Positions 2,640 to 62,306 of a stretch of 64,000 nucleotides of DNA are shown piece by piece. This DNA comes from Litchfieldia alkalitelluris (GTDB taxonomy: Bacteria > Bacillota > Bacilli > Bacillales > Bacillaceae_L): NCBI RefSeq assembly GCF_002019645.1, contig NZ_KV917374.1, positions 4,920,369 through 4,984,368 on the forward strand. Direction: 5' to 3'. The position numbers were made by a program, and so were the translations under genes. The first letter of the stretch is position 1, and the number at the start of each line of letters is the position of its first letter. Below the pieces are notes generated by a model. The model made no database searches, was not told where the DNA came from, and saw only the letters and a list, made by a program, of their open reading frames with translations.

Positions 2640-2760
2640 GGACAACTATTCACCTCTCGTCACCTAAACCTGTCTGAACTTAGCTCGACTTTGGACAGCT
2701 TTCCTCTCAGGCACCTAAACCTGTATGAACTTAGCACAACTTCATCCACCTCGGACAGCT
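2640..2760. repeat. Degenerate family B hairpin-arm repeats
   Basis: Three arms related to the 17.2-18.6 kb array occur here: ACCTGTCTGAACTTAGC, TTTGGACAGCTTTCC and CTCGGACAGCT. They are separated by short tracts. They run directly into the first family A unit at 2761. Confidence 0.75.
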
Positions 2761-3480
2761 GTAATAAATAGAGGGAAAAATTCCCCTTAATTAATAAATA
2801 GCACCGAAAATAGATTAAATAGACGGAGAAATTTCTCTTATTTCACTCGAAAAGCTTGAAAATAGGTAATATACTTTGTATAGGGGGAAAAACTCCACCT
2901 ATTTACCCCGAAATGAGCTCTAATTTGCAATTAACGGAAATATCTCCGCTTATTGGAATTCCCCCCACTCGATCCTCAACTAAACCTGTCTAAACTTGGC
3001 TCGACTTAGGACAGCTGTAATAAATAGAGGGAAAAATTGCCCTTAATTAATGAATAGCACCGAAAATAGATTAAATAGACGGAGAAATTTCTCTTATTTC
3101 ACTCGAAAAGCTTGAAAATAGGTAATATATTTTGTATAGGCGGAAAAGCTCCCCCTATTTACCCCGAAATGAGCTCTAATTTGCAATTAACGGAAAAATC
3201 TCCGCTTATTGGAATTCCCCCCACTCAATCCTCAACTAAACCTGTCTAAACTTGGCTCGACTTCGGACAGCTTTAATAAAATAGAGGGAAAAACTTCCTT
3301 TAATAAACAAATAGCCCCAAAAATGGCTTAAATAGACGGAAAAATTTCTCTTATTTGACTCAAAAAGCTTGAAAATAGGTAATTTGCTTTTTATAGGTGG
3401 AAAAACTCCACCTATTTACCCTAAAATGAGCTCTAATTTGACATTAGCGGAAAAATCTCCGCTTATTGGCGTTCCCACTC
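2761..3480 (+). repeat. Three tandem 256-bp units of the four-box repeat (family A)
   Basis: Units begin at 2761, 3017 and 3273, exactly 256 bp apart; the third loses similarity near 3480. Each unit carries four imperfect palindromes of about 24 bp. In unit 1 they are centred near 2778, 2830, 2891 and 2941, so spacings are about 51, 61 and 51 bp. Units 1 and 2 then end with a family B arm pair (CCTGTCTAAACTTGG, GGACAGCT). Arms differ between copies while staying largely complementary: box 3 reads ATAGGGGGA in unit 1, ATAGGCGGA in unit 2 and ATAGGTGGA in unit 3, the last pairing perfectly with TCCACCTAT. The array separates prkA from yhbH. No ORF is credible here. Confidence 0.9.
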
Positions 3481-3651
3481 GACCCTAAAAACCTGTCTGA
3501 ACCTCGCCCCCAGAAAACTTTACCACTTTTATTGTCTAACCTTCCCACATTTCACACAGCTCCTCCCCATACTCCACATTCAACCTTGTCCAAACCAACA
3601 TACGCCCACACTCCACTTATTCCCCTCTCAAACCAAACAAACTCTCCCACA

Positions 3652-3684
3652 CAAAAAAACCAGACCCCACCCCAGCAGGATCTG
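3652..3684 (-). terminator. Likely terminator of prkA
   Basis: On the minus strand CAGATCC and GGGTCTG can pair (one G-U) across a 10-nt loop. A run of seven Ts follows, about 10 bases after the prkA stop. Confidence 0.7.
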
Positions 3685-3694
3685 ATTTTCTCTT

Positions 3695-5593
3695 TTATCG
3701 ATTCAATAGACTTCCAACATAACGCAGTAATTCATTTGCTGACGTTGAATTATAGCCATGCTCATCAATCAGTCTTGCAACAACTTCATTGACCTTTTTA
3801 AGCTGCTGTTCATCCGGAGTCTTCGATGATGTTGTAATTTTAACAACATCTTTCAAATCAGCAAATAGCTTCTTCTGAATCGCTTCTCTTAATCTCTCAT
3901 GGGAATTATAATTAAATCTCTTGCCTTTACGAGCATATGCAGAGATTCGGATTAAGATTTCTTCTCGGAATGCCTTTTTTGCATTTTCAGAGATTCCGAT
4001 TTGCTCTTCTATTGATCTCATTAACTTTTCATCTGGATTCATTTCCTCACCAGTTAATGGATCGCGTAATTTATTTTTATTACAGTAAGCTTCAACATTA
4101 TCCAAATAATTTTCCATTAATGTTTTAGCAGACTCTTCGTAAGAATATACGAATGCTTTTTGCACTTCTTTTTTCGCAATATCATCGTATTCTTTACGTG
4201 CTAAGGAAATGAAGTTTAGATAACGCTCACGATCTTCATTTGATATCGAAGGATGATGCTCAAGTCCTTCTTTCAATGAGCGTAGCACGTCTAAGGCATT
4301 GATTGACGGATTTTCATCTTTACGAATAATGGTTGAAGAAATTCGGTTGATCACATAACGAGGGTCAATCCCGCTCATTCCTTCATCCGCATATTCTTTC
4401 TTAAGCTCCTCCACATCAACTGCATTAAAGCCTTCTACACTTTCTCCATCATATAAGCGCATCTTCTTAATTAAATCAATATCACCTTTTTTAGGTGCCT
4501 TTAATCGAGAAAGAATGGTAAACATTGCCGCCACTTTTAATGTATGTGGTGCAATATGCACTTCGTGAACGTCACTTTCTCTAATCATTTTTTCATAAAT
4601 GCGTTCTTCTTCTGACACTCGAAGGTTATAAGGAACAGGCATGACAATAATCCGTGAGTGCAGAGCCTCATTTTTCTTATTACTAATAAACGAGCGGTAC
4701 TCTGTTTCGTTCGTATGAGCGACAATTAGCTCATCAGCTGAAATCAGGGCAAATCTACCAGCCTTGAAATTTCCCTCTTGAGTTAGGGATAACAAATGCC
4801 ATAGGAACTTTTCATCACACTTAAGCATTTCTTGGAATTCCATCATTCCTCGATTCGCTTTGTTCAATTCCCCATCAAATCGATATGCGCGTGGATCTGA
4901 TTCTGAACCAAACTCAGCAATGGTAGAAAAGTCGATACTTCCAGTTAAATCAGCAATATCCTGTGACTTAGGATCAGATGGACTAAAAGTTCCAATACCT
5001 ACACGCTTATCCTCAGACAAGAAAATTCGTTCAACCATCACATCTTCAATTCGGCCGCCATATTCTTTTTGAAGTCTCATCATATTTAATGGTGAGAGAT
5101 TTCCTTCAATTCGAACCCCATATTCTTGTTGAAAGTCTTCACGCAGATGTTGTGGGATTAAATGTAAAGGATCCTCATGCATCGGACAACCTTTAATTGC
5201 ATATACGGCACCTCGGTCAGAAAGTGTATAAGCTTCCAAACCTCTTTTGAGCATCGTAACTAGAGTTGATTTTCCTCCACTTACTGGTCCCATGAGTAAT
5301 AAAATACGCTTCCTAACATCTAATCGTTTAGCAGCTGGATGAAAATACTCTTCAACCAACCTTTCTAAAGGCTCTTCTAATCCAAACAACTGATGATCGA
5401 AAAATTTATATTTTCTTTTGCCATTGACCTCTTCAATACCAGCGTCTTTAATCATATTGTAAACTCTAGAATGAGCCGATTGAGCAACCCAAGGCTGTTC
5501 TTTAATAATTTCTAAATACTCAGCAAAGGTACCTTCCCACTGCAGACGCTGCTCTTCTTCACGATACTTTTCAATTTTCTTTAAAATATCCAT
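3695..5593 (-). CDS. prkA: PrkA, AAA+ protein kinase/protease of sporulation
   Basis: A 632-residue protein, about the length of B. subtilis PrkA. ATG at 5593 follows GAGGAGG. The AAA+ domain carries the Walker A motif MGPVSGGKST near residues 102-112. A C-terminal PrkA domain with many charged helices follows. The family was described as a Ser protein kinase and later as a Lon-like ATP-dependent protease acting during sporulation; I cannot distinguish these activities from sequence. A sigma-E-like promoter lies 47-75 bases upstream. YhbH, its usual neighbour, is displaced by the repeat array at 2640-3480. Confidence 0.97.
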   Translation of the reverse strand: MDILKKIEKYREEEQRLQWEGTFAEYLEIIKEQPWVAQSAHSRVYNMIKDAGIEEVNGKRKYKFFDHQLFGLEEPLERLVEEYFHPAAKRLDVRKRILLLMGPVSGGKSTLVTMLKRGLEAYTLSDRGAVYAIKGCPMHEDPLHLIPQHLREDFQQEYGVRIEGNLSPLNMMRLQKEYGGRIEDVMVERIFLSEDKRVGIGTFSPSDPKSQDIADLTGSIDFSTIAEFGSESDPRAYRFDGELNKANRGMMEFQEMLKCDEKFLWHLLSLTQEGNFKAGRFALISADELIVAHTNETEYRSFISNKKNEALHSRIIVMPVPYNLRVSEEERIYEKMIRESDVHEVHIAPHTLKVAAMFTILSRLKAPKKGDIDLIKKMRLYDGESVEGFNAVDVEELKKEYADEGMSGIDPRYVINRISSTIIRKDENPSINALDVLRSLKEGLEHHPSISNEDRERYLNFISLARKEYDDIAKKEVQKAFVYSYEESAKTLMENYLDNVEAYCNKNKLRDPLTGEEMNPDEKLMRSIEEQIGISENAKKAFREEILIRISAYARKGKRFNYNSHERLREAIQKKLFADLKDVVKITTSSKTPDEQQLKKVNEVVARLIDEHGYNSTSANELLRYVGSLLNR

Positions 5594-8507: not shown

Positions 8508-8979
8508 ATGATAATCTAGGGTAGTTCTGCTGGCGTAATACTTCATAGAGCAAAACTGCTGCTGTGTTTGATACATTTAGTGAAGAAACAACATCAGTCA
8601 TTGGCAGTCTTACACAGCGTTCCACATTGTTCTCTATAAGTTCTTTCGGTAAGCCACTTGTTTCTCTTCCAAAAACAAAAAAGTGTTCTTTGTCCAAATC
8701 ACTAAAATCAAATGAGCTATGTGCTTTTTCTCCAAACTTCGTAATGAAATAAAATTCACCATTTTCGTGTTTTTCGAAAAGCTCCTCTAGCGAATCATAA
8801 TATTGAACATTAACAAATTGCCAGTAATCCAAGCCTGCACGCTTTAGAATTTTATTATCTGTTGAAAATCCTAAAGGTCTAATTAGATGTAATGTGGCAT
8901 TTGTTGCTGCACATGTGCGGGCAATATTCCCTGTATTAGCTGGAGTTTCTGGTTGATATAATACGACATTTAGTCCCAC
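8506..8979 (-). CDS. trmL: tRNA (cytidine/uridine-34-2'-O)-methyltransferase TrmL (CspR)
   Basis: A 157-residue SPOUT-class methyltransferase. I place the start at GTG 8979 because AGAGGTGA lies five bases upstream and the product then aligns with B. subtilis CspR from residue 1 (VVLYQPE, PANTGNIARTCAA). A GTG nine bases earlier has no spacing from its ribosome binding site. The knotted SAM-binding C-terminus is visible in FVFGRETSGLP, RLPM and SSLNVSNTAAVLLYEVLRQ. It methylates the wobble ribose of tRNA-Leu isoacceptors. The conserved neighbourhood with queG matches the yhb region. Confidence 0.95.
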   Translation of the reverse strand: MGLNVVLYQPETPANTGNIARTCAATNATLHLIRPLGFSTDNKILKRAGLDYWQFVNVQYYDSLEELFEKHENGEFYFITKFGEKAHSSFDFSDLDKEHFFVFGRETSGLPKELIENNVERCVRLPMTDVVSSLNVSNTAAVLLYEVLRQQNYPRLS

Positions 8980-22537: not shown

Positions 22538-22641
22538 AACTTTTTCGGCGACCCGGCTACCATAGCAATTGCTTTAGGCCCGTAGTTTTGCGTCCCTACC
22601 TTTCAATAGGTTTGCCATTATCGAAAATCATTAATATTATA
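22538..22641 (-). promoter_or_regulatory. c-di-GMP-I (GEMM-I) riboswitch with its -10 box
   Basis: Read on the minus strand, the conserved GEMM-I core is plain: GGCAAACC, the P2 hairpin with a GAAA tetraloop (CCTATTGAAAGGTAGG), GGGACGCAAA, then ACGGGCCTAAAG, a P3 stem with CAATTG, GGTAGCCGGG and closing TCGCCG. This matches the cyclic di-GMP class I aptamer. TATAAT at 22641-22636 puts the transcript start next to the aptamer. The -35 element is weak. Two tiny ORFs follow the terminator. Whether ligand turns the unit on or off cannot be decided by eye. Confidence 0.93.
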
Positions 22642-56163: not shown

Positions 56164-56249
56164 ACCAAGACTAAGTTGTGCGGTTTAATGGTGTTTTTTG
56201 CTGAAATGACAATTGAATTGAATTGGTGTGATGGATTTTTTATTAGCGA

Positions 56250-56440
56250 TAAATAATAAGGGGAGAATTTTCCGTTAAATGAAGATTAGCACTCGTTTTG
56301 GGGTAAATAAGGGAAGTTTTTCCCTCTATACAAGTAAAATTACCAATTTCCTTGTTTTATGAGTAAAATAAGAGAAATTTTTCCCTCTATATGCACCGTT
56401 TTCGATGAAATTTATTAATTAAGAGAAATTTTTCCCTCTA
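56250..56440 (-). repeat. Four-box repeat (family A) abutting the DUF559-like gene
   Basis: Boxes are centred near 56266, 56317, 56378 and 56430, with spacings 51, 61 and 52 bp. Read on the minus strand, the order and spacers match the tandem units at 2761-3480 (ATAGAGGGAAAAATTTC, ACTTGTATAGAGGGAAAA, TTTAACGGAAAATTC). Box 1 begins at the TAG stop codon of the 56438 gene, so the repeat forms its 3' end. Confidence 0.9.
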
Positions 56441-57112
56441 TCGACTGATTAGATCATAGTGCCTAACCTGTTCCCCTATCCGATAAGAGCGAACTCTCAC
56501 TGTCCCAGATGCGGGAATTAACAGCTTTTTATCGACTAGTTGAGAAAGCACTTTTCTAACCGTCTTGTTACTTAGCTTCAAATACTTCTCGAATTCTACA
56601 GGGGTTATGGCTTCAACGCTTCGAATCGCTAGCCGAAGTACTTCCTTTTCAACTAAGGACAAAGTGGTCTGGTCCAGTTCATCCCCTAGCCATCGGCCAA
56701 TCACTTGCTGAATAACTTGTTGGCATTGACGAGGCTTCTCGTTAACTTGGTCATAAGAAAAGCGGATCACTGTCCATCCGTCAATCACTAACTGGTTTTG
56801 ACGTTCCAGGCTGTCTGAAAATTGCCATCGGCTTATGTTCTGTAAGTGAGGGCCGTACCCGTCAATCTCGAGGCAAATCTGCATAGTCGGCCGAATATAA
56901 GCAAAGTCCAAGTACCTTTTGCCATCCTTGAAATCATTGACCTCATATTCTGGATGCAGATATCGAAAATGGTGAAATAATGGCCACCACACTTGCTTCA
57001 AAAACAACATTTCAGCATGTTTGTGACCTTCCTTTAAGCGCCGCAACCGTTCACCGGTTCTTGTCTTTAAATGATTATTCATAAATGTCTGATATTCTTT
57101 TTCAAATCCCAT
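56438..57112 (-). CDS. DUF559/Vsr-like nuclease domain with winged helix
   Basis: I start at ATG 57112, with AGAGGAA upstream. The 224-residue protein has a basic helical N-terminus, then a PD-(D/E)xK-like core: RYLDFAYIRPTMQICLEIDG followed by GWTVIRFSYDQV, as in DUF559 and very-short-patch nucleases. The C-terminal 80 residues read as a winged helix (TPVEFEKYLKLSNKTVRKVL, VRVRSYRIGEQV). Cytoplasmic, presumably DNA-acting. Its stop codon is the first base triplet of a family A repeat. Decayed pieces of the same 3' end lie at 59237-59311 and 62250-62306, each beside family A boxes. I infer a link with repeat spread; the biochemical role is unknown. Confidence 0.75.
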   Translation of the reverse strand: MGFEKEYQTFMNNHLKTRTGERLRRLKEGHKHAEMLFLKQVWWPLFHHFRYLHPEYEVNDFKDGKRYLDFAYIRPTMQICLEIDGYGPHLQNISRWQFSDSLERQNQLVIDGWTVIRFSYDQVNEKPRQCQQVIQQVIGRWLGDELDQTTLSLVEKEVLRLAIRSVEAITPVEFEKYLKLSNKTVRKVLSQLVDKKLLIPASGTVRVRSYRIGEQVRHYDLISR

Positions 57113-57133
57113 AGCATTCCTCTTCCTATCCAA

Positions 57134-57500
57134 TGGTTATGTTTTTTGTGGTGGAAACCTTAAATTTGAACTTCGGAAAGATTTTAAAGATAATGAGTGT
57201 TAAAATGCGAGTGAAAAAAAGAAGTTTAATGTGGTCTCAACTGGGAGGGGGGATTGTAGCAATAAAGAATGGTAGAGCGGATACAAAGATTACGGAAGAA
57301 ACCTGAGTGTAGAACTAGTTTTAGTTTAATAGAATCCTTTTATTTGTCAATCTATTCTCTTTATAATTCACCAAATCTACTCTTAACATTTCTACTTTCA
57401 GCCTCCCCAGCCTTAAGGAAGGCATTCGTGAATCACCGGAACGCATTAAAATAAGGTTCCAACATCATTCTTCCCGCTACTTTAAATATAAAAATTCCTA
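57134..57500. other. Intergenic region upstream of the DUF559-like gene
   Basis: No recognised element. A 61-codon plus-strand frame at 57269 has a purine-rich leader but no family resemblance and odd composition. The promoter of the minus-strand gene should lie in the left part. Confidence 0.4.
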
Positions 57501-57504
57501 GCCA

Positions 57505-57590
57505 TAAAAAATAAGGGGAGTTATTTCCGTTAATTGCCAATTAGAGCTTATTTTTGGGTAAATAAGTGGAGTTTTTCCACTAGCCTTGCA
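57505..57590 (-). repeat. Partial four-box repeat left of the IS
   Basis: Two boxes (AAGGGGAGTTATTTCCGT and AAGTGGAGTTTTTCCACT), centred near 57522 and 57573, are 51 bp apart. The spacer AATTAGAGCTTATTTTTGGG matches box 4 to box 3 of the full unit. The remaining boxes are missing. Confidence 0.8.
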
Positions 57591-57700
57591 AGAAGATGTT
57601 AATTAGTTCCATTTTATATATTTTTGCAGGAGCAATGCAACGATAATGACCCACTAATTGTTATTTTAGTGAAATTTTTCCATGTGTAATTACTCAACTA

Positions 57701-59047
57701 ATAAAAAAAAGAAACACACAAACAAACGAAGACATGTTCCTGTTTTTTCCAATTATTAACTTAGATGTAAATTACCTTTTTTGTTTTAAGAATCCGTGGA
57801 TGTTTTCTAGGTCGACCAGGTTTACCTTTTTTGACTCTTCCTCTAGTAGTCCGAGAAGTCTTGTAGGTAATTAAATTAAAAAACTTCTGCCATGGTTGAT
57901 ACCAATTACAAATCATCTTTTTTAAGATTTGTTTAGTTGTATACTTTACATTTTCAAACTGGTCTTTTACTAATTCACATAGTCCGAAAGCGATAAAAGC
58001 AAGGTAGATTTGATTCCAAACAGCCGTTGTTTTGTAGCTAAATAGCTTCTCAAATTTTAGGTTTTGTTTCAACCACTTGAAGAATAGTTCAATGCACCAT
58101 CTTCTTTTGTAAATCATAGCTACATTCTCTGAAGAAAGGTCCCAACGATTAGTTAGTACACGATATCGATTACCATCCGAGTCACGGTATTCGACTAGTC
58201 GTGCAATGATTGTTTCCTCAGTCTTTGGAACTTTCATTTCTACCTTTGCATCAAGTGTAATGAGACTTTCTGTCTCAATTGAGTACTCTTCTATAACCTT
58301 TGTTCTCGAGCTTTCCTTAAGCCTAACAACAAAGTTTATATTACTTTCTAACCACTTTGAGAACAGTGTGTAGTTGATATAACCACGATCCATCACATGA
58401 GTATGATGTTGGCTTGTAAGTATGTAATCCGCAACTTCATGGTCGGCATATCCTGCAGTTGATGGGATGAAAAATTCCGGATAGACGTTATCTTGGCCAA
58501 AAGATCCAAGCAAAAGATGTACTTTTACTGCATTCTTACTTTTGGATGTATACGCCCATTCTCCTGCCTTTTTAGGAAGTTTAATTTCTGTGGAATCTAG
58601 TATTCCTAACAAACCTACTTCTGAAGAAGTAGCGGATGTAGATTCCTGTGGTTTTTTCAATTCTGCAACCTGGTTTAGTATTTCGAAACACATCTCTTGA
58701 AGATGATGCGTTGGAATTTCATTTAACTTTCGACATAGAGATGAACCACTTATTGACTTCAATCCTAAATAAGACTGTAGATCCTCATTAGCCTTTAGAT
58801 GGTCAGCTATTTCATCTAGAGAACCATGATTTTGTAAGAAGGCATTAACAAATAATAAGATTGTATGCCCTGTTAACAGTTTCTTTGAGTAAGTATCGGA
58901 AACTGGGCATCGAAAATTTTTCATAGAAATTAACGAAAAACACTTTTCAAAAACAGATATATTTGGTATGTTACTCATACGGTTTTCTCCTATTGTTTGT
59001 GTTTGAGTAACATGTCTTCAAACATACAATAGGGGATTTTTTTTATA
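57701..59047 (-). mobile_element. IS4-type insertion sequence
   Basis: A single transposase gene is enclosed by inverted ends. Both ends, read inward, share ATAAAAAAAA and then GAAGACATGTT (left at 57728-57738, right as complement near 59010-59020). The exact outer border and any target duplication cannot be fixed by eye. Flanks on both sides are fragments of family A, so it inserted into a repeat cluster. Confidence 0.75.
57761..58978 (-). CDS. IS4-family transposase
   Basis: A 405-residue DDE transposase, full length. ATG 58978 has GGAGAAAA upstream. The N-terminal helical domain (LLTGHTILLFVNAFLQNHGS) is followed by the catalytic RNase-H fold: first Asp in LLGILDSTEIKLP, second in HVMDRGYINYTLF, and Glu in YKRRWCIELFFKWLKQNLK, the IS4 Y-(2)R-(3)E-(6)K signature. 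The basic tail ends GRPRKHPRILKTKK. No frameshift is seen, so it may be active. Confidence 0.93.
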   Translation of the reverse strand: MSNIPNISVFEKCFSLISMKNFRCPVSDTYSKKLLTGHTILLFVNAFLQNHGSLDEIADHLKANEDLQSYLGLKSISGSSLCRKLNEIPTHHLQEMCFEILNQVAELKKPQESTSATSSEVGLLGILDSTEIKLPKKAGEWAYTSKSKNAVKVHLLLGSFGQDNVYPEFFIPSTAGYADHEVADYILTSQHHTHVMDRGYINYTLFSKWLESNINFVVRLKESSRTKVIEEYSIETESLITLDAKVEMKVPKTEETIIARLVEYRDSDGNRYRVLTNRWDLSSENVAMIYKRRWCIELFFKWLKQNLKFEKLFSYKTTAVWNQIYLAFIAFGLCELVKDQFENVKYTTKQILKKMICNWYQPWQKFFNLITYKTSRTTRGRVKKGKPGRPRKHPRILKTKKVIYI

Positions 59048-59094
59048 TGTCTAAACAAATTTTGGTAAATAAGTAAATCATTAGAATTGTTTTG

Positions 59095-59236
59095 CAATGC
59101 TAGTGGAGTTTTTCCCCCTATACAAGCAAAATCACCTATTTTCTTATGTTTCTAATAAAATAAGAGAAATTTTTTCCCCTATTTTAGCTAATTTCGATAC
59201 TATTAATTAATTAAGAGAAATTTTTCCCTTTATTTA
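59095..59236 (-). repeat. Partial four-box repeat right of the IS
   Basis: Three boxes centred near 59110, 59171 and 59222 have spacings 61 and 51 bp, i.e. boxes 3, 2 and 1 of the unit read on the minus strand. The outermost box joins directly to a decayed nuclease gene end at 59237. Confidence 0.82.
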
Positions 59237-59311
59237 TTAAATCAAAGAGCCGAATCTCCCCCATTTACGATAAAATCGGTGACTGCCCCAAAATTCAGGA
59301 ATCAGCAGCTT
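59237..59311 (-). pseudogene. Decayed 3' end of a second DUF559-like gene
   Basis: The minus-strand frame reads KLLIPEFWGSHRFYRKWGRF then GSLI and TAA. The intact gene ends KLLIPASGTVRVRSYRIG...LISR at the same distance from its family A boxes. Nucleotide similarity (CAGCTTTTTAT-, CGATAAGA-like stretches) also persists. Confidence 0.55.
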
Positions 59312-59472
59312 TATAAACTGTACAATGCTTATTCCAATGCTATGTCAAAGTTAAAAAACTCACATAGGAGCCCTAATAAACAAAGAAAAAGACGCATGGC
59401 CAAGTTCACACGTCAATTTGATGTCTGTTAAAAAGAAAGCCTTCTAAAACGGCCATTTTAACTTAGAGAATA

Positions 59473-61528: not shown

Positions 61529-62054
61529 ATCTACACTCCTTTTATATAATCTATTAGATATAAGTGTATATAGTAATCAATTTAGTTATCCTTCGGTTTT
61601 GATATGTAGTTACCACTATATCAAACATTGAGGTGTTTTATTCTAGTTTTTTCTGTGTCGAGGTTTTACTGAAATAAACTGTAGCTCTACAGTCAGTTAT
61701 TATATATCTACTTTTTAAGGTGCGAAAGGTTAATCTTATCCTATTTATCGTCACTTCTAGAATATTTTAAAATAGGGATTCAATTTCAACACAACTAAAC
61801 TCATTTTTATGATGAATTTGATAGGATAACTATTACCGCTCTATTCTAGTGCGTAGTCAAAGAGTTTCCTTAATCACTAATATTAAATATGAGCGCCAAT
61901 TTACATATGAAATTGACACTCATTATTTTTGGTGTAAAGCCATGTGGGTGAAAATCAAATTTTCACAGGGAAATGCAAACCAAATTGTAGAGGTACAACG
62001 GCTATTGGTCCCCCACAATTTGTTATACGACTTATCTTACTGTAAATTTTAAAA
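61529..62054. other. Intergenic region upstream of the LytTR operon
   Basis: The regulator promoter should lie in 61540-61700, where AGTTA-type motifs recur without the 21-bp spacing. A 67-codon plus-strand frame at 61849 has no ribosome binding site and no family resemblance. No terminator is seen. Confidence 0.4.
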
Positions 62055-62232
62055 TTAGCGGAGATTTTCCGGTTAACGGCAAAATAGAGCTTGGTTCAGC
62101 CTATAAGCGGAGTATTTCCGATTAAGCAAAGAACAACAACCCATTTTTATGTTTTTTGAGTCAATAGGCGGAATCCTTCCGTCTATTTAAGCTATTTTAA
62201 GTGCTAATTCCCAATTAAGAGAACTTTCTCCA
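62055..62232 (-). repeat. Four-box repeat (family A), divergent copy
   Basis: GCGGAGATTTTCCG, GCGGAGTATTTCCG, GCGGAATCCTTCCG and GAGAACTTTCTC are centred near 62064, 62114, 62175 and 62225. Spacings are 49, 61 and 50 bp. Spacer words (AAAATAGAGCTT, TTTTTTGAGTCAATAG) match the other copies. Confidence 0.85.
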
Positions 62233-62249
62233 CTTATTTTCAACAACCC

Positions 62250-62306
62250 ATTCTGACTCCTTCATCTGGGGCCGTGATGGTCCGCTCTTATGTGGTTGGG
62301 GGGAGT
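62250..62306 (+). pseudogene. Decayed piece of a third DUF559-like gene end
   Basis: The plus-strand frame reads ILTPSSGAVMVRSYVVGG, matching LLIPASGTVRVRSYRIGE of the intact gene at 56438 almost residue for residue. It lies about 20 bases from a family A copy, but in the opposite relative orientation to the intact locus. No start or upstream part remains. Confidence 0.65.

Follow-up and report, generated by a model that had tools for sequence, protein, structure and literature searches.

Our analysis of the window, i.e. the whole stretch of 64,000 nucleotides of Litchfieldia alkalitelluris considered here, points to a pairing between a gene for a DUF559-like nuclease of 224 residues and an array of four palindromic boxes that abuts its 3' end. 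On balance, we regard gene and array as a cognate pair, that is, a sequence-specific nuclease together with the array of sites it recognises. Gene and array are linked, the boxes are phased, box likeness goes with protein likeness, the boxes are dispersed, putative catalytic residues are conserved, the gene occurs in many contexts and decayed gene tails lie beside some arrays. We infer that the protein binds and cuts the array and that repair accounts for its spread; this suggests that the gene-array pair may spread itself.

The nuclease gene lies on the minus strand (56438-57112) and encodes the DUF559-like domain at about residues 50-140 and a C-terminal winged helix at about residues 150-215. 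The four-box unit at its 3' end occupies positions 56254-56441 on the plus strand, with box cores at 56258-56278, 56308-56328, 56369-56389 and 56420-56440. The stop codon had been read as part of a box, and indeed the outer half of the box closest to the gene contains the TAG (56438-56440, minus strand). On the other side, the upstream region of the gene (57113-57480, minus strand) is partly conserved among homologues, as judged from 31 chosen upstream regions that were aligned, and contains a promoter-like TTGACA (57346-57351) with a TATTAAACT-like -10 element as well as a hairpin at 57401-57423, all read directly from the sequence. When searched with a pattern written by hand from the boxes, the box core is found at 14 places in the window with at most three mismatches, compared to an average of 0.11 in shuffled sequences.

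A second four-box unit is interrupted by an insertion sequence. Its first part (57500-57578, plus strand) is 80% identical to 56244-56323 and its second part (59105-59233, plus strand) continues the match, positions 59102-59233 being 80% identical to 56310-56441. The insertion sequence between them (57579-59104), which landed within a palindromic box, carries an IS4-type transposase (57761-58978, minus strand) that matches Pfam DDE_Tnp_1 with an E-value of 1.1e-22. By eye, it ends in ACTAGC/GCTAGT and is flanked by an 11-bp duplication, GGAGTTTTTCC, at 57568-57578 and 59105-59115. Next to the second part lies the decayed 3' end of a second gene copy (59236-59315, minus strand), with a local alignment score of 56 that none of 500 shuffles reaches (best shuffle 30). 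A further unit of about 240 bp (62049-62289, plus strand) belongs to another subfamily that is also dispersed in the relative G407, where at least eight copies, among the matches listed, align to about query positions 8550-8790. A fragment of about 44 nt within and beyond this unit (62258-62301, plus strand) resembles the gene's 3' end in inverted orientation (score 44, reached by 0 of 500 shuffles, best shuffle 34), while the match in the same orientation is not significant (score 20, reached by 213 of 500 shuffles).

The sequence-only reading had counted three associations of unit and gene within 6 kb, unlikely by chance, with remnants of the gene's 3' end beside units at 59095 and 62055. 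The remnant at 59095 is real and aligns with the gene, whereas the one at 62055 does not align in the orientation proposed and is found as the inverted match only. Moreover, 59095 is not a separate whole unit, but the second part of the one begun at 57500-57578. What remains is an intact pair, a decayed pair that the insertion sequence has divided, and a unit with an inverted gene-like fragment. Hence, these local associations are not three independent ones, since the units at 57500 and 59095 are one and the same, and the fragment at 62055 is inverted, at a unit whose subfamily has dispersed copies in a relative.

The linkage is far clearer when homologues are compared. A search with an alignment of four homologues as query yielded 90 relatives, 80 of which were kept as the named-genome set, and a four-box HMM was trained on 27 units of the window's genome that had been selected without gene or gene tail. 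Under one and the same rule for homologues and controls (E < 1e-5, either strand, distance taken from the stop codon), 68 of the 80 homologous loci have a unit directly at the stop codon, which is true of none of the 314 control ORFs; when the distance is widened to 200 nt, the counts become 73 of 80 and 27 of 314, respectively. Such an enrichment of the four-box model is what the sequence-only reading had proposed to check, and the outcome that it named as adverse, homologues elsewhere that lack flanking boxes, did not arise, as unit and gene occur together in those 73 loci. The position is also narrowly defined, with the unit starting 7-19 nt past the last aligned codon in 67 of the 80 loci. 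Seven loci gave no match to the four-box HMM near the 3' end, namely L067, L093, L101, with Ns in its flank, and the four loci that diverge most. Of the latter, three (L130, L131 and L135) have significant palindrome pairs of another kind at the 3' end of the gene, and L136, with a short flank, shows one palindrome by eye.

A class-wide search (E 1e-8) extended the comparison to mostly distant homologues. Matches are found in at least 47 of 398 genomes, with a patchy distribution and up to at least eight matches per genome, fragments included, and flanks were taken from most of the near-full-length homologues. We applied a box-pair test, which scanned distances of 50-52 and 60-62 only, to L130, L131, L135 and the class-wide loci from L137 on, short or N-containing flanks being excluded. 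A significant box pair, in the 3' flanks usually of different sequence, is present in 68 of 106 3' flanks versus 12 of 106 5' flanks, and in the other 38 3' flanks the test is not significant. In pairwise comparisons of 76 loci, which represent 53 flanking contexts, shared sequence ends on the 3' side at +200-209 in 901 of 2704 pairs; this is where the unit has its outer edge. A unit in the same orientation is present upstream within 1.3 kb in 22 of these 76 loci and an inverted unit alone in one, and a gene-tail match accompanies 7 of 21 upstream direct units (L076 not counted). Some genes are bordered by direct units on both sides, and decayed gene tails adjoin some arrays.

In the aligned set of 53 gene-adjacent units, box centres are 51, 61 and 51 nt apart, and the near-invariant positions define a half-site TA(A/G)nnGGA. 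Inner box positions hold conserved mismatches, e.g. G opposite G in 44 of the 53 units. Mismatch cells of the G-U and A-C type amount to 228 and 158, respectively, with no consistent excess: two boxes lean towards G-U, one is even and one leans towards A-C. Given the conserved inner mismatches and the lack of a consistent G-U or A-C excess, a double-stranded site bound by a dimer fits better than a hairpin, and the boxes, judged by their sequence, look like double-stranded sites for a protein dimer. By simple arithmetic, the spacings of 51 and 61 nt correspond to about five and six helical turns, and may serve binding to the same face of the DNA. Distances between palindrome pairs were also counted in 179 of the 189 gene loci, close and distant homologues together. 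Of the 144 pairs that the 3' flanks contain at 20-130 nt, 40 fall into a peak at 51-52 nt and 22 into one at 61-62 nt, although these peaks are not all independent, since the 179 loci contain many close relatives. The 5' flanks hold seven palindrome pairs in total, three of them at 50-52 nt, and shuffles hold three, none of them at 50-52 nt.

The boxes differ by clade, as exemplified by ATAACGGAA..TTCCGTTAAT, TTAGAGGGA..TCCCTCTAAA, TGTATGCGA..TCGAATACAAT and ATCAGAGGTA..TACCTCTGAT, and they do so in step with the protein. Across 62 loci (53 of the 106, those with strong boxes, and nine hand-picked from the named-genome set), box likeness tracks protein identity with a Mantel r of 0.487, which none of 2000 permutations reaches. 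For protein pairs below 60% identity the correlation is nearly gone (r 0.09 over 1641 pairs), as if box specificity changed fully within that distance. Cross-genome pairs with at least 55% protein identity (167 pairs) show a box likeness of 0.61, and paralogues of the same genome (41 pairs, with genome labels assigned by hand) one of 0.49, equal to that of unrelated pairs.

The window's protein scores 20.0 bits against Pfam DUF559 (PF04480), for which the cutoff is 20.6; of its homologues, L135 (25.8) and L136 (24.8) lie above, and L131 (16.1) and L124 (17.8) below this value. The AlphaFold2 model (mean pLDDT 82) predicts an alpha/beta core followed by a C-terminal helical part with a wing, and its structural matches, none of which reaches an E-value of 0.001 or better, comprise the endonuclease-like 3hrl and many MarR-type regulators. 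The putative catalytic residues D69, E82 and H89, which we take to be of the PD-(D/E)XK type, do not vary in any of the 180 proteins for which more than 190 positions were aligned. At position 84, the named-genome set has D throughout (76 of 76 proteins), and the class-wide set has D, K or Q in 97 of its 104 proteins. With a median dN/dS of 0.17 relative to the window's gene (70 pairs), the gene evolves under purifying selection. In tblastn searches at E 1e-5, one of 72,556 plasmid records and none of 50,697 phage records matched it. Scans of the protein against Pfam, NCBIfam and PHROGs returned no transposase family, but DUF559-like, HTH and weak unrelated matches only; those in PHROGs, all weak, are to a helicase and to two families without a known function. 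The best PDB match by sequence is a 'circular tendon repeat protein' on the HTH part (E 1.7e-4), and no nuclease was among the matches. In PADLOC, weak and partial matches of the C-terminal region to MkoB (E 2.3e-4, residues 148-200) and SoFic (E 6.1e-3) were obtained for the window's protein, and none for that of L135.

Within the window's genome we found two intact gene copies, 83% identical to each other, and several fragments. Six of nine protein-level matches abut a unit on the same side, among the matches listed, i.e. the two intact genes and tails at 5217371, 1241425, 4091323 and 3892468. The match at 993102 has a unit about 220 nt away, and those at 5011469 and 2820968 (E 0.98) have no unit beside them among the matches listed. 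Gene-less units are more numerous. The window itself holds a tandem array of three (2727-3464, minus strand), with which, as a query of positions 2727-3470, at least 44 matches were obtained in this genome when 40 of 165 first-look candidates were scored. Short repeats GCTGTCCGAAGTCGAGCC...GACAGGTTTAG occur between and beside these tandem units (window positions of about 2640-2760, 2975-3040 and 3215-3280, minus strand). The units are intergenic, none of 39 entries overlapping an ORF of at least 90 aa in a count that left out 12 of 51 entries from other genomes or in tandem or split units. Where ORFs lie on both sides (23 units), their arrangement is convergent in 12 cases, tandem in 10 and divergent in one. 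Dispersal is not confined to this genome: in each of two genomes, perhaps of Paenibacillaceae, the box of one homologue was searched with up to three mismatches allowed, and it is found 36 times in G063 and 164 times in G386, copies beside the gene included, with 0 for the reversed control. In G386, the boxes form runs of 1-16 with nearly constant steps of 52 nt (20 regions), in which, by eye, the sequence between boxes recurs at the array edges, while the array ends look unique and share no terminal inverted repeat (TIR).

Such arrays could in principle serve the host. The protein would then be a domesticated DNA-organising or regulatory protein, the arrays would be binding platforms used for nucleoid structure or transcription ends, and the nuclease domain would act in repair or regulation. 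Phased, operator-like boxes and the intergenic location of the units agree with this explanation, as do the purifying selection on the gene and its near absence from plasmids and phages. However, the patchy distribution over the class, the many contexts, the decayed gene copies, and the several matches in some genomes, fragments included, with different boxes in paralogues, make the arrays look selfish rather than host-serving. As such, we consider a domesticated protein unlikely.

A part of the gene-less units evidently resides in other elements. Among the 47 unit entries from the genome of the window, 10 have TIRs like TAACCCGTTCGGTTGAGAGGGAG, recognised by eye, on one side in five and on both sides in five. 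Among the latter, L012 and L038 have 9-bp duplications, L034 has 8 of 9 matching positions, and L019 and L035 have none that is clear (by eye). A MITE family with the TIR TAACCCGTTCGGTTGAGAGGGAG bears the four-box unit in its middle in these five entries, and five one-ended ones add to it. In G401 and G403, units lie inside elements with the TIR TAACGGGTTCTCTTTT, and duplications of about 10 bp are seen by eye in L350 and L351 (8 of 11 copies aligned); this second MITE family (L347-L352, L356 and L357), which holds the four-box unit, has the right end AAAAGAGAACCCGTTA. The gene tail of L002 is matched in six of the 11 copies at 0 of 300 shuffles and in one at 3 of 300, and is not matched in the remaining four (46, 68, 279 and 38 of 300 shuffles). 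The tail of the window's own gene has no match beyond chance in the 11 elements.

It is therefore conceivable that gene-less units are merely the cargo of TIR-bounded MITEs moved by DDE transposases, and that the nuclease takes no part in their dispersal. Besides the elements just described, the units of G402, which are alike even though the gene was not detected there, speak for such passenger spread. Yet, 37 of the 47 entries in the window's genome show no TIR, and TIRs together with a target duplication, as expected of a MITE, are found for a subset of the gene-less units only. The array ends in G386, unique-looking as noted, share no TIR either. We also considered the TIRs as ends of a gene-bearing element; the TIR core, with one mismatch allowed, flanks none of the 80 gene-bearing loci on both sides. 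Finally, MITE carriage leaves unexplained why genes have the boxes of their own clade beside them. Altogether, passenger spread as the sole explanation appears quite unlikely.

The likeness of unit copies was compared with gene presence, using 3-9 copies per genome that were picked by their likeness to the window. Nearest-neighbour identities are 0.98 in G407, 0.95 in G401, 0.80 in G409 and 0.83 in G400, all with the gene, 0.91 in G403 with a broken gene, and 0.92 in G402, 0.83 in G405, 0.78 in G404 and 0.75 in G406, where the gene was not detected. The picture is mixed, with copies in G402 and G403 as alike as some in genomes with the gene, and thus lends no support to the gene being the sole driver. 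Among 17 genomes of the window's family, with the unit beside the gene counted and at most ten candidates scored per genome, units are present in 8 of 8 genomes with a close gene or remnant and in 4 of 9 without (one-sided Fisher test 0.020, which ignores relatedness).

Empty and filled sites had been suggested as a further comparison. G005 has a stretch of about 2.1 kb that G190 lacks, containing a distant homologue (L214) and a dispersed repeat of 188 nt in three copies. The likeness of the flanks is no more than 73-76%, the direction of the event is not firm and its boundary not exact, and the homologue's own box-pair test is not significant (p 0.42). The downstream flank in G005 recurs in G325 (query 3042-4589) and partly in G368 and G289 (3052-3879), without that gene in the match, and the upstream flank is found in G190 only, at E 1e-15. 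Gene-bearing copies showed neither a clean insertion boundary nor a target duplication. A search for an empty site in Rossellomorea, in which L079 was compared with the genomes of eight loci, its own included, met with rearranged upstream flanks and gave no clean empty site. At the site shared by L079 and L093, L079 has the gene and two downstream units and the genome of L093 has the gene without them; units are gained and lost next to a gene that stays in place.

It is highly improbable that the boxes are RNA elements, i.e. 3' UTR hairpins that act as terminator or stability element and are repeated elsewhere by chance: they do follow directly after the stop codon and their palindromes could form stems, but their mismatches are conserved with no consistent G-U or A-C excess, RNAalifold on the 53 gene-adjacent units pairs distant boxes in a long-range fold with a very small covariation term of -0.49 (9 of 20 pairs with double changes), the box unit has no Rfam match at gathering scores, and boxes also form gene-less runs of up to 16.

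Returning to gene and array as a cognate pair of nuclease and recognised sites, we can outline how the two might work together. The protein most likely binds each palindrome of about 24 bp as a dimer via its winged helix. With the boxes about five or six helical turns apart, several dimers would be placed on one face of the DNA and their nuclease domains brought together. A cut at or near the array would call for recombinational repair between array copies, which could copy the array, or gene and array, into other sites that carry boxes. Repair between direct arrays would delete the intervening genes and leave gene-less arrays behind, and these could then spread further, both carried along by ordinary MITEs and multiplied in tandem. 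More tentatively, and with less than even confidence, we propose that such pairs are self-dispersing nuclease-array elements and form a new class in bacilli. A PD-(D/E)XK/winged-helix protein would recognise its own helically phased array as a multi-dimer complex, cut, and spread array and gene by repair, and many clades would evolve new enzyme/box specificities in parallel, several within one genome. The REP/RAYT way of life would then have been invented a second time, independently.

REP sequences and their RAYTs are a known case of a bacterial enzyme tied to its own dispersed palindromes, the RAYT being an HUH Y1 enzyme that acts on single-stranded hairpins. In REP/REPIN with RAYT (TnpA-REP) as in the present system, a single gene is associated with palindromes which also occur scattered between genes, in copies that lack the enzyme gene, and in both, enzyme and palindrome are related, the boxes here matching the enzyme gene and being dispersed. 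The enzyme, in contrast, is DUF559-like with a winged helix, and its boxes are phased at 51 and 61 nt and look like double-stranded dimer sites. Indeed, the HUH Y1 transposase that defines the RAYT enzymes was looked for in the Pfam, NCBIfam and PHROGs scans of the protein and not found, and we thus read the arrangement as REP/RAYT-like in habit with an unrelated enzyme, not as a member of REP/RAYT. The analogy to REP and RAYT drawn in the sequence-only reading therefore applies to the arrangement, with its linkage, box-protein pairing and gene-less dispersal, but less well to the nuclease as agent, given the units in TIR MITEs and the alike units of G402.

Free-standing homing endonucleases provide a second comparison, their nuclease gene adjoining the presumed target. 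A nuclease gene beside its presumed target is what we find here, and spread by repair would fit as well, but the gene does not interrupt the array, and the target, as far as the boxes tell, is multi-box and phased. The nuclease families DUF559 and MTES_1575 (PF04480 and PF18741), compared by description, share the catalytic domain with its conserved D, E-x-[DKQ] and H; our protein has a C-terminal winged helix, and the family descriptions include no array. Like bcr1 and other MITEs, the units are short, dispersed and intergenic, and some of them sit in TIR elements, but gene-bearing copies do not have these TIRs on both sides and most gene-less unit entries do not have them at all. The bacterial MITEs named in the part of PMC3733652 consulted are bcr1, RUP, NEMIS and ERIC. 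In the consulted part of PMC8049555, RAYTs are described as hardly occurring on plasmids, as holds for the nuclease gene, and as single-copy and vertically inherited, whereas the nuclease gene occurs in many contexts and with several paralogues. REPINs and RAYTs, REP and MITE families and stem-loop families are covered in PMC8049555, PMC3733652 and PMC2267715, which name no such enzyme in the parts consulted. A description of such a nuclease-array pair was not found in the literature searched, with most subscription papers outside its reach.

If the proposal of self-dispersing elements is true, a second, unrelated enzyme with the REP/RAYT habit would suggest a general strategy, and nuclease-array elements could explain many of the repeats that lie between genes in bacilli. 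With so many enzymes matched to their boxes, there is a natural data set from which the DNA specificity of a nuclease family without a known function can be read, and the agent of such repeat spread becomes a testable question.

Some further observations concern individual arrays and the window. The gene-less arrays L373, L358 and L374 of G386, with 15-16 boxes at 52-nt steps, are CRISPR-like at first sight. L002 contains, at about positions 600-1500, a tandem unit array whose spacers include a gene-tail piece, with one spacer part inverted (GATGCTGATTCCTGCATC versus GATGCAGGAATCAGCATC). The window also carries a c-di-GMP-I riboswitch at 22544-22626 on the minus strand (Rfam RF01051, 81.9 bits).
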